Below are positions 39,143-42,925 of a DNA stretch of 43,131 nucleotides, in pieces. A program made the position numbers and the translations under genes. The DNA lies in the NCBI GenBank assembly GCA_016842085.1, contig JAEVEX010000025.1:1-43131 (forward strand). Reading direction: 5' to 3'. The DNA is from Candidatus Thermoflexus tengchongensis (GTDB lineage Bacteria > Chloroflexota > Anaerolineae > Thermoflexales > Thermoflexaceae). The notes under the pieces were generated by a model. The model saw only the letters and a program-made list of their open reading frames with translations. It did no database searches and was not told where the DNA came from. Numbering within the stretch: the first letter of the stretch is position 1; each line of letters opens with the position of its first letter.

Positions 39143-39957
39143 GCCGGGAAGCCGTGGCCCTCTTTTTGCGAACGATGATCGCGCGGGCTTACCCGCGGAT
39201 CATCGGCCAGAACCGGGAGCCCAGCTGGGTTCTGATCGATATTGGATTGCCGCTGCTGGGCACCTCCGCCTATGTGTTCATCTATCGGGCCCTCCAGGCC
39301 CCCGAGGAATACATCGGCTTCGTGATCCTGGGCGGGGCCATGACCGCCTTCTGGCTCAACGTCCTGTGGTCGATGTCCAGCCAGCTTTACTGGGAAAAAG
39401 AATCGGGGAACCTCCCCCTGTTCATCATCGCCCCCGGACCGATGATGGGGATCCTGGCCGGGATGGCGCTGGGCGGGATGCTGGCGACCACCCTGCGGGC
39501 ATCGGTGATCGTCCTGGCCGGCTCTCTGCTCTTCGGGGTGCGTTACGCGCCGGCGAATCCTCTGGCGCTGGTGGGGACCTTCCTGCTGACCCTGCTGGCC
39601 CTTTATGGGTTGGGGATGCTGCTGGCCTCTCTCTTCCTGATGTGGGGCCGGGAGGCCTGGCATCTCTCGAACCTCTTACAGGAGCCGATCTACCTGCTCT
39701 CCGGGTTCTACTTCCCGATCCGGGCGCTGGGGTTCTGGATCGGCGCGCTGGCGTCCCTGATTCCCCTCACCCTGGGCCTGGATGCGATGCGGCAGCTCCT
39801 CTTCCCGAGGGCCGCCAGCGGCCTGTTCCCGGTTGGCTGGGAGATCGGGGGCCTGGCCGTGCTGAGCGCCGTCTTCCTCATTGCGGCGAAGCGGGCTCTG
39901 GATGCTCTCGAATGGCTGGCCCGACGGGAAGGTCGGCTCACGGAACGGAGGCGCTGA
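39139..39957 (+). CDS. ABC-2 type permease, first subunit
   Basis: A 272-residue permease with six hydrophobic helices (about 34-53, 58-79, 100-135, 140-168, 180-205 and 225-248). The PIYLLSGFYFPIRALG segment before the fifth helix is typical of ABC-2 transporters. Translation is coupled to the ATPase through the ATGA overlap, and its TGA overlaps the ATG of the second permease by one base. The two permeases are dissimilar enough to form a heterodimer. The C-terminal tail is basic and cytoplasmic. Confidence 0.9.
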   Translation: MSREAVALFLRTMIARAYPRIIGQNREPSWVLIDIGLPLLGTSAYVFIYRALQAPEEYIGFVILGGAMTAFWLNVLWSMSSQLYWEKESGNLPLFIIAPGPMMGILAGMALGGMLATTLRASVIVLAGSLLFGVRYAPANPLALVGTFLLTLLALYGLGMLLASLFLMWGREAWHLSNLLQEPIYLLSGFYFPIRALGFWIGALASLIPLTLGLDAMRQLLFPRAASGLFPVGWEIGGLAVLSAVFLIAAKRALDALEWLARREGRLTERRR

Positions 39958-40805
39958 TGCGAACCCTCTGGCGAACCCTGCGGACCGCCGCCTGGCTGGG
40001 CTGGCAGATCGAATCGAACTGGACGGATCCATTCCTGTTTATGATCTACTCGGTCGCCAAGCCCATCGCCAGCGTCCTCATCCTGATCCTGATGTATAAG
40101 GTGGTGGCCCGGGCGGATTTCAGCCACCCTCTCTTCGCTTATCTCTACCTGGGCAACGCGTTCTATATCTATGTGGGCGCCGTCCTCACGGGGATCAGCC
40201 AGGTTTTGATCATCGACCGGGAGGAATATGGGATCCTGAAATACTTCTACATCGCGCCCATCCCCTCCGAAGCCTACCTGGTGGGGCGAGGGGTTGCCCG
40301 CATGGCCACCGGCACGATCGCTGTGGCGATCACGCTCCTGTTCGGGCTCCTGGTTTTCCGGCTGCCGTTACAGATCTCCGGGGCGGGCGGGGTGTTTTTC
40401 CTCCTCGCGATGATGCTGGGGATGCTGGCCATGATCGGTCTGGGGGTGGGGCTGGCGGGAGCCACCCTTCTCGCAGCCCGCCATGTCTGGGTGATCGGGG
40501 AAGCGGTGGCCGGCGCCCTCTATCTGTTCTGCGGCGCCGTGTTCCCCCTGGAGGTCCTCCCGCCCTTCCTGCGCCCGATCGGATATGTGCTTCCCCTGAC
40601 CTACTGGCTGGAAAGTGTCCGTCGGGCCCTGCTGGGTCCCTCCGCCGTCCGCTTCCCGACCTTCGCCGGATGGTCGGATGGACAGCTGCTATTGCTCCTG
40701 GGAGGGATGACCGCGCTCTCCATGGGTATGGGGTTTGGGCTGTATCGGCTGGCGGAGCGGAAAGCCCGAGCGCAGGGGGCGATCGATCGGGAGACCGGGT
40801 ATTAA
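39957..40805 (+). CDS. ABC-2 type permease, second subunit
   Basis: A 282-residue permease with six hydrophobic helices and the ABC-2 segment LYLFCGAVFPLEVLPPFLRPIGYVLPLTYWLESVR. The ATG shares its A with the preceding TGA stop, and GGAGG lies five bases upstream inside the first permease gene. The open frame runs far upstream in the same phase but there it is only the shadow of the first permease. It ends the operon; the repeat array begins eight bases later with no recognisable terminator other than the array's own hairpins. Confidence 0.9.
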   Translation: MRTLWRTLRTAAWLGWQIESNWTDPFLFMIYSVAKPIASVLILILMYKVVARADFSHPLFAYLYLGNAFYIYVGAVLTGISQVLIIDREEYGILKYFYIAPIPSEAYLVGRGVARMATGTIAVAITLLFGLLVFRLPLQISGAGGVFFLLAMMLGMLAMIGLGVGLAGATLLAARHVWVIGEAVAGALYLFCGAVFPLEVLPPFLRPIGYVLPLTYWLESVRRALLGPSAVRFPTFAGWSDGQLLLLLGGMTALSMGMGFGLYRLAERKARAQGAIDRETGY

Positions 40806-40812
40806 GAGACGC

Positions 40813-41433
40813 GTCGAATGAATTCGACCTCAAGAGGCCTTCGGCCGGCCTTCGCCGGCCGGGAGAAGAGTTTCGTGCCGGCGAAGGCTGGCATCCGGCG
40901 CGGAGAGGGTGTCGAATGAATTCGACCTTAAAGGCCTTCGGCCACCGGCCGGCCTGCGCCGGCCGAAAGGCGGTTTTCATGCCGGCGAAGACCGGCACCC
41001 GGCGCGAAGCGCCCAACCAGGCCGATTTCAATCGGCGCACAAGCCCACGCCCGGCGCGGAGAGCGTCGAATGAATTCGACCTTAAAGGCCTTTGGCCACC
41101 GGCCGGCCTGCGCCGGCTGTTACGTCGGCGCAGGCCGACGCTTGGCGCGAAGCGCCTCGCGAGGCCGATTTCCAATCGGCGTGAGAGGCCAACGGCCGGC
41201 GCGGGTGTCGGAGGAATTCGACCTCAAGAGGCCGTCGCCGGCTGTCGTGTCGAATGAATTCGACCTCATAGGCCTTCGGCCGATGGCCGGCCTGCGCCGG
41301 CCAAAAATGCCTTCCGCGTCGGCGCAGGCCGACGCCCGGCGCGGAGCGCCTATGGAGGCCGATTTCCAATCGGCGTGAGAGGCCGACACCTGACGCAAAG
41401 CGCCTCGCGAGGCCGATTTCCATCGGCGCACGG
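40813..41433. repeat. Array of nested palindromic intergenic repeats
   Basis: The core GTCGAA-TGAA-TTCGAC (6-bp stem, TGAA loop) starts at 40813, 40911, 41065 and 41249, with a variant (GTCGGAGGAATTCGAC) at 41207. A second hairpin GCCGATTTCCAATCGGC, with small variants, lies at 41021, 41164, 41358 and 41412. Between them are GGCCTGCGCCGGCC-like and CGTCGGCGCAGGCCGACG palindromes and GGCGCGAAGCGCC. Three near-complete monomers of about 142-154 bp and several partial ones can be seen. All six frames give repetitive peptides without family features, so this is not a gene. Spacing (98, 154, 142, 42) is too irregular for CRISPR. Confidence 0.88.
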
Positions 41434-41605
41434 CAGGGCTTTCACAAAGTGCGGACCGCCGCTATAATAACTGCTCTGGAAGAGCGGCTCCGCCTCAGAT
41501 GCTCCCGCAGGTCGCGCCGTTGAACGCCCTTCAGCTTGGGGCCGGATAAATGCTTTCGATGCTTCTCGCGGCCCCAAACGGTGGGGTTGCAGCCAGGGAT
41601 CCGCG
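41434..41605 (+). other. Promoter and structured leader upstream of the CNNM-type gene
   Basis: Beyond the repeat array there is a promoter and about 130 bases of transcribed leader. The leader contains a 9-bp stem TTGGGGCCG (41536-41544) / CGGCCCCAA (41569-41577) enclosing 24 bases. It does not match the M-box or yybP-ykoY riboswitch consensus as I know them. Confidence 0.45.
41441..41468 (+). promoter_or_regulatory. Sigma-70 promoter of the CNNM-type gene
   Basis: TTCACA (41441-41446) and a perfect TATAAT (41463-41468) are 16 bases apart, eight bases past the end of the repeat array. Transcription would start near 41475. Confidence 0.7.
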
Positions 41606-42925
41606 ATGGACGACAGTTCTCTGTTATTGCAATGGGTGGTGGTTTTCGGGTTAATCGGCCTGAACGCTTTCTTCGCCGCAGTGGAGTATGCGGTGGTGTC
41701 AGCCCGCCGGAGCCGGATTGCGGTGCTGGCCGAGTCGGGTTCCCCGGCCGCTCGGATCGCGCTGCGCTGGCTGGAGGATGCGCGGCATCGGGATGAGATC
41801 CTGGCCACCGTGCAGGTGGGGATTACCATGGTGGGGCTGGCGCTGGGATGGCTGGGGGAACGCACCCTATCGGCGACCCTGGATCGTTTGCTGGCCCTCC
41901 CTCCACCCACCCCGCTGGTTCGAAGGGTCCTGCAGATCCTCCCCCTGGGGCTCAACCTGACCTTCATCCTCGGCCTCCAGATCGTGCTGGGGGAACAGGT
42001 TCCCAAGATCGCCACCCTGCGGGCCTCCGAACGGGTATTGCTGGCCACCCTGGGCCCGATGCGGGCGATCTACTGGCTCCTGCGCCCCCTGGTCTGGGTG
42101 CTCCACCGGGCGACCGATTTCACCCTGCGGGCTCTCCGGATCTCGGCGGACGGCTACGGGATGATGTATACCATTGAGGAACTCAAGCGGATCGTGGATG
42201 AGACCGGGGAAGCGGGGATCCTGGAGCCGGAGGCCCGGGAGATCCTGGAAGCGGTCTTCGACCTGGGGCAGATCCCGGCCCGCCAGATCATGGTGCCCCG
42301 GACGGAGATCGTGGCGGTGGAAGCCGACGCCCCCGTGGAGCGGATCCTCGACGCGGCTATCCAGACCGGCTACGATAAGTTCCCGGTTTATGAGGGCGAC
42401 CTGGATCATATCATCGGGGTGGTGCATCTCCGCGAGGCGCTGCGCGCATGGCGGGAGGGACGCCCGGCCCGGGCGCGGGATCTGTGCCGCGAGGTGATGG
42501 TGGTGCCGGACTCCATCCGGGTGGATGACCTGTTGCGCCAGTTCCAGGAGCGGGAAGAACACCTGGCGATCCTGGTGGATGAATTCGGCGGCACATCCGG
42601 TCTGGTCACGCTCCGGGATGTGCTGGAGCAGCTGGTGGGGGAGCTCCACGAGCGGATGGAGCCCACGGAGCCGGATGTGGTCGCTATGCCCGATGGTTCC
42701 TATCTGATCAGCGGGCTGCTTCCGATCCAGGAGGTCAATGAACGGTTCCAGCTGGATCTGCGGGATCCTTACTATGAGACGATCGCCGGGTTTGTGCTGG
42801 GCCGCCTGGGGCGCATCGCCCGGGTGGGCGATGAGGTGGACGCCGGGGGGGTTCGTCTGCGGGTGGAGGCGATGGATGGCCTGCGCATCGCCCGCCTTCG
42901 TTTGATCCCCCAGGCAGGGCGCTGA
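41606..42925 (+). CDS. CNNM/CorC-type membrane protein (DUF21-CBS-CorC/HlyC)
   Basis: A 439-residue protein of the family loosely called 'haemolysin'. The N-terminal DUF21 domain (about 1-190) has helices at about 8-30, 66-85, 105-130 and 145-165, with the family motifs NAFFAAVEYAVVSARRSRI and GEQVPKIATLRASE. Two CBS domains follow (about 210-340, MVPRTEIVAVE, YDKFPVYEGDLDHIIGVVHL and LAILVDEFGGTSGLVTLRDVLEQLVGE). The C-terminal CorC/HlyC domain (about 350-437) ends the protein. Homologues are Mg2+ or other divalent-cation exporters, with CBS domains binding ATP-Mg. AGGGAT lies before the ATG. Confidence 0.92.
   Translation: MDDSSLLLQWVVVFGLIGLNAFFAAVEYAVVSARRSRIAVLAESGSPAARIALRWLEDARHRDEILATVQVGITMVGLALGWLGERTLSATLDRLLALPPPTPLVRRVLQILPLGLNLTFILGLQIVLGEQVPKIATLRASERVLLATLGPMRAIYWLLRPLVWVLHRATDFTLRALRISADGYGMMYTIEELKRIVDETGEAGILEPEAREILEAVFDLGQIPARQIMVPRTEIVAVEADAPVERILDAAIQTGYDKFPVYEGDLDHIIGVVHLREALRAWREGRPARARDLCREVMVVPDSIRVDDLLRQFQEREEHLAILVDEFGGTSGLVTLRDVLEQLVGELHERMEPTEPDVVAMPDGSYLISGLLPIQEVNERFQLDLRDPYYETIAGFVLGRLGRIARVGDEVDAGGVRLRVEAMDGLRIARLRLIPQAGR

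Follow-up and report, generated by a model that had tools for sequence, protein, structure and literature searches.

The array of nested palindromes at positions 40813 to 41429 of the window (the whole stretch of DNA analysed, 43,131 nucleotides) is probably a cluster of non-autonomous mobile elements of the REP/BIME (REPIN) type. The elements appear to belong to a REPtron-like system with a TnpA_Y1 enzyme of subclass 1.2, through which they would be transposed. The system is best described as REPIN-like compound repeats of three hairpins, paired with a TnpA_Y1 of subclass 1.2, and is REPtron-like in its anatomy.

Anatomy of the array and its units

The array lies between genes for an ABC-2 permease and a CNNM/CBS/CorC_HlyC protein. 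Its parts, and these neighbors, are as follows (h1, h2 and h3 are the hairpins of the left half of a unit; h1', h2' and h3' are those of the right half).

39957 to 40805, + strand: ABC-2 permease gene, upstream neighbor; the array begins 7 nt past its stop
40813 to 41429, + strand: whole array of full and partial units, from the first h1 to the GC past the last h1'
40813 to 40910, + strand: unit 1, truncated; left half h1-h2-h3, spacer, right-half h3' and part of h2'
40911 to 41036, + strand: unit 2, full inverted doublet h1-h2-h3 / h3'-h2'-h1'
41037 to 41064, + strand: right-half remnant separating units 2 and 3 (read from the sequence)
41065 to 41180, + strand: unit 3, full inverted doublet with a short spacer
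41207 to 41248, + strand: unit 4, fragment with an h1 variant and h2
41249 to 41374, + strand: unit 5, full inverted doublet
41380 to 41427, + strand: additional right half, with partial h3', then h2' and h1' (41412 to 41427); end of the array
41606 to 42925, + strand: CNNM/CBS/CorC_HlyC gene, downstream neighbor, about 180 nt past the array

The palindromic modules listed in a preliminary description of this DNA were found where it had placed them: h1 (GTCGAA-TGAA-TTCGAC) starts at 40813, 40911, 41065, 41207 and 41249, and h1' (GCCGATT..AATCGGC) at 41021, 41164, 41358 and 41412. The h1-to-h1 spacings of 154 and 142 nt agree with the monomer length of 142 to 154 bp given there, and the alternation of full and partial monomers is confirmed from the sequence. 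The units are arranged head-to-tail. The array opens spurious long reading frames at 40670 to 41257 (+) and 40330 to 41175 (-), which encode repeated peptides (e.g., SNEFDL); false gene calls by automatic annotation are therefore possible at this locus. Just past the array, upstream of the CNNM/CorC gene, is a sigma-70-like promoter match (TTCACA-16-TATAAT, 11/12; 41441 to 41468, +).

The repeat unit, about 126 nt long, is an inverted pair of homologous half-units joined by a short spacer. Each half-unit has three hairpins, in the order h1 (6-bp stem, TGAA-type loop), a CTC linker, h2 (loop TTC or TCC) and h3 (7 to 8 bp stem, loop CTNC). Read in both directions, the left and right halves prove to be homologous, with the right one reverse-complemented; the whole unit is quasi-palindromic and the monomer is thus an inverted doublet. 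Alignment of half against half in the three full window units gave 39 to 45 identities over 60 to 67 columns, with scores of 57, 51 and 60.5 compared to 41.5, 36.5 and 40 for the best of 300 shuffles. The modules of the preliminary description stand, but the monomer is more than the row of at least four different hairpins in fixed order given there; the geometry is BIME/REPIN-like.

The start of nearly all arrays coincides exactly with h1 (GTCGAATGAATTCGAC), and most have their end at h1' (GGCCGATTTCC..AATCGGC). Of 73 left half-units, 60 have the dinucleotide CT directly after h1, as have 61 of 68 right half-units; the bases preceding h1 show a weak G-rich, G-pyrimidine preference. The repeat varies with species, h1 being mostly GCCGAA-TGAA-TTCGGC in the complete congener G004 and GCCGAC-TAAA-GTCGTC in Thermoflexus sp. 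SKYG36 (G002).

Folded as single-stranded DNA, a single unit reaches -42.8 kcal/mol, compared to -27.9 (sd 2.7) for dinucleotide shuffles (z -5.5). We aligned 56 diverse half-units, taken from Thermoflexus and two relatives. The motif patterns used to find them tolerate substitutions but favor a paired h1 (and weakly h2 and h3). Across the three stems of this alignment, standard pairs occupy 96.1% of cells. Eight rows were excluded because their longer h1 loop caused misalignment. Double-sided changes occur at 11 of the 19 stem pairs, none of 500 shuffles matched the observed pairing and covariation, and pairing falls to 41% or less when the partners are slid out of register. Stem pairing in the half-units is under selection, and the stems are maintained. 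The loops vary less than the stems. The aligned stems contain similar numbers of G-U and A-C cells; thus, RNA of one strand is not favored.

Distribution of the arrays and their absence at orthologous sites

The preliminary description held that its proposal of a new repeat family would fail if the monomer occurred nowhere else in this or a related genome. This is not the case: we identified about 36 arrays in the window's genome (G000), which is that of a hot-spring bacterium, with 91 matches to the whole array as query and 150 to a single unit. The family is present in most congeners, including G004 (216 unit matches in about 35 arrays), and there are weaker matches elsewhere in the class.

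At the window locus, the array is absent from the orthologous intergenic regions of Candidatus Thermoflexus japonica HRbin22 (G008), G005 and G002. Other arrays of G000 are similarly absent at orthologous sites in G005 and G002 (L035), in five congeners (L020) and in at least G008 and G005 (L024). Since the array is absent from at least two congeners at all four loci compared closely, the repeat family is gained and lost at individual sites. The intergenic flanks at the compared loci are too diverged for a target duplication or the exact insertion site to be readable.

Many G000 arrays start less than 30 nt from a stop codon, and 25 of 34 have the upstream gene facing them (p = 0.009; neighbor genes assigned by a simple ORF rule). 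In the complete G004 genome the GC skew is weak and mixed, and a replication-strand bias of the arrays is not evident. The position close to stop codons and the maintained stems are consistent with structured RNA or DNA elements at gene 3' ends (mRNA stabilizer, terminator, gyrase or nucleoid site) that are kept for host benefit, with only a secondary link to the transposase; such side roles are known for REPs (PMC3733652, PMC6006769). We consider this explanation unlikely, as arrays are missing at orthologous sites beside the same genes. In addition, a terminator scan gave no terminator-like site inside the array, Rfam covariance models at a permissive threshold gave no family (best 22.3 bits, compared to a gathering score of 88), and the G-U and A-C counts favor neither strand. 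The structured RNA considered in the preliminary description finds no positive support in these same results, as there is no clear excess of G-U over A-C.

A Y1 transposase gene within the arrays of related species

In a genus-wide search for Y1 genes whose flanks were read, we identified a gene for a protein of 142 to 157 aa that lies between array units and is oriented like them in G008, G002 and G004. The gene neighborhoods are different in the three genomes, and the gene is single copy in each Thermoflexus genome that has it. The arrangement characteristic of REPtrons, a single-copy Y1 gene with multicopy repeats on both sides, is therefore present in G002, G004 and G008. That no transposase is adjacent, as noted in the preliminary description, is true at the window locus but not in these related species.

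The gene was not found in G000 (95% complete, 100 contigs) or in the array-bearing genomes G003 and G006. It may have been lost from the window's genome, or may be missing from the assembly because repeat-flanked genes assemble poorly. Thus, the window array may represent what is left of a system that sister species retain in full. The flanks of the gene-bearing array in G008 (L059) correspond to two separate arrays in G000, L029 (C79) and L042 (C10), so that a synteny break coincides with these arrays. This suggests a rearrangement or loss at the C79 and C10 arrays.

The embedded protein matches PF01797 and the NCBIfam IS200 model above cut-off, and scores well below cut-off (25 of 80 bits) with the NCBIfam REP_Tyr model. 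By sequence and fold comparison (structure model with pLDDT 69.9), TnpA of IS608/ISDra2 is nearest; the REP-bound TnpA_REP structure 4er8 was also matched. The TnpA_Y1 proteins of subclass 1.2 are described as having the motifs DHxH, WQ and Y---Q--HH, a length of about 148 aa and a specific C-terminal domain of about 30 aa; they are mostly from Cyanobacteria and Bacteroidetes, and are listed without REPs or IS ends (Quentin et al., 2018, PMC6006769). The Thermoflexus proteins (142 to 157 aa) carry DHLH, WQ and Y-x3-Q-x2-HH, where the subclass has DH[IV]H, WQ and Y---Q--HH. Their C-terminal tail, GxLIPELESVSEE, is conserved, and its structure is predicted with low confidence. Judged by its sequence, the embedded enzyme carries the motifs of subclass 1.2, a type not previously linked to such repeats. 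The presence of Y---Q--HH in all 38 genes is no independent test, since the motif was used to locate them, but its absence from all eight TnpB-linked IS200 controls is. The TnpB-type IS200 controls cluster separately in a tree, as a supported group.

Beyond Thermoflexus, a genome scan identified the gene in four more Chloroflexota (L074, L075, L077, L078), one Thermomicrobiales (L079) and one MAG labelled Proteobacteria (L080). At the four Chloroflexota loci, palindromic modules occur in similar order on both sides of the gene; at L079 and L080 there are palindromes beside the gene in a different arrangement. The L080 protein (Centralia_MAG_377) is identical to that of L089 in the Chloroflexota genome G156, and the Proteobacteria label or the binning of this MAG is therefore doubtful. 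The proteins resemble subclass 1.2 as described in their motifs, length (about 140 to 157 aa) and low copy number. However, the described subclass has neither REPs nor IS ends, whereas here the gene is within repeat arrays, and relatives of the enzyme (E <= 1e-20) occur in 37 of 400 sampled Chloroflexota genomes.

Perfect hairpins number 2.44 in the 300 nt beside the gene and 0.53 further out at 34 non-Thermoflexus loci (Wilcoxon p = 8e-6), an imperfect control because the outer windows are mostly coding. At least one perfect hairpin is present on both sides at 26 of the 34 loci, and eight are without one on one side. The flank repeats are multicopy in G418 and G218; those of G034 are local only in a DNA-level search. 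The sample of subclass 1.2 genes covers Chloroflexota and two Bacteroidota. In the Bacteroidota, the flanking repeat of Persicobacter is found at nine places on the same plasmid, and Bernardetia has matching repeats on both sides of the gene. Two matches on cyanobacterial plasmids are ordinary IS200 types. The flank repeats differ between lineages, yet they agree with the local genome-wide family.

An ordinary insertion sequence could have landed in pre-existing palindromic repeats that spread otherwise, by template switching or recombination. REPs are known targets of IS elements (PMC1525189), and growth of the arrays by tandem exchange is plain from the near-identical neighboring units. Nevertheless, we regard this account as quite improbable. 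The gene is single copy, occurs in different neighborhoods, is always between units and was never found alone in the genus, and lineage-specific flank repeats still match the genome-wide family of their host. Neither IS200 end signals nor TnpB were observed beside the gene.

The REP-associated transposase sought in the preliminary description has counterparts in the window's genome, as two RAYT-like genes, L036 (C97) and L051 (C77), exceed the NCBIfam REP_Tyr_transpos cut-off. Neither has the repeat within 1 kb, and the enzyme embedded in the congener arrays is instead IS200-like, of subclass 1.2. Mobilization of the arrays by these canonical RAYTs is very unlikely, although both pass the cut-off and one is 4.2 kb from an array, because there is no h1 within 1 kb of any of the six other Y1 genes of the genus (both in G000 and four in congeners), and because the GTAG foot recognized by class 2 enzymes is absent. 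Not being flanked by the repeat, the G000 RAYTs were rejected as its drivers.

Relation to known systems and candidate mode of spread

Compared with REP/BIME (REPIN) sequences and their TnpA_REP (RAYT), the REPtron, the Thermoflexus system is alike in its many-copy intergenic palindromes, its inverted-pair units in tandem arrays, its single-copy Y1 HUH gene flanked by repeats and the CT beside the hairpin; TnpA_REP cleaves at CT (PMC8266576). It differs in having three hairpins per half-unit (about 55 to 60 nt) rather than one, and an enzyme of class 1 (IS200-like, Y---Q--HH) rather than class 2 (Y--NP). We found GT[AG]G at the foot of h1 in none of 141 half-units and no class 2 TnpA_REP gene flanked by repeats, the genuine RAYTs of the genus being unflanked. 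By foot and by enzyme class, the repeat thus lies outside the canonical GTAG REP family.

With IS200/IS605 the system shares its nearest solved structures, the NCBIfam model and hairpins beside the gene. Here, however, TnpB was not seen, repeats far outnumber the gene, and the ends are inverted rather than direct. Several near-identical tnpA copies, as in IS200/IS605, were not found, each Thermoflexus genome with the subclass 1.2 gene having one. CGTC-tagged REPs are also short intergenic palindromic repeats, often inverted dimers, and their published description includes no dedicated transposase (Di Nocera et al., 2013, PMC3733652). Their constant unpaired CGTC tag is absent here: the base before the GTC of h1 may be C, T, G or A, and h1 begins with GCC in G004 and G002.

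The preliminary suggestion of a REP/BIME-like array mobilized in trans is supported by the genome-wide copies, inverted pairs, covariation, presence and absence at orthologous sites and the Y1 gene in three congeners; the RAYT that it expected is not the enzyme found. In the REPtron-like system favored here, the enzyme would recognize the hairpins in single-stranded DNA (e.g., the lagging-strand template), and would cut and rejoin beside the hairpin foot. In this way, units would be spread in trans to intergenic sites, frequently directly downstream of stop codons, and arrays may then lengthen and shuffle through exchange between units.

There is perhaps an even chance that compound multi-hairpin palindromes of Chloroflexota and Bacteroidota form a third REP superfamily, distinct from the GTAG and CGTC types, with subclass 1.2 TnpA_Y1 as its dedicated partner. 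If so, REP-spreading enzymes arose from IS200-type transposases for a second time, separately from the RAYTs. Subclass 1.2, hitherto an orphan (IS200-like, not behaving as an insertion sequence, and with no substrate assigned), gains a candidate substrate, and the widespread unexplained palindromic repeats of Chloroflexota and Bacteroidota gain a candidate enzyme. How an insertion sequence turns into a repeat-spreading system is a question raised previously (PMC6006769, PMC8266576); it becomes directly testable here, as the enzyme is IS200-like and the geometry REPIN-like.

We found no account of this family in the open-access literature on Thermoflexus or Chloroflexi palindromic repeats. A second palindromic repeat family (GGTAGGAGCGGCTTTAGCCGCGACC, GGGGCTGAAGCCCCTCCTAC) was identified in the panC-coaX intergenic region of G004 (L124) and G003 (L123), where G000 has an array, and in the flanks of the G000 arrays L019 and L020.
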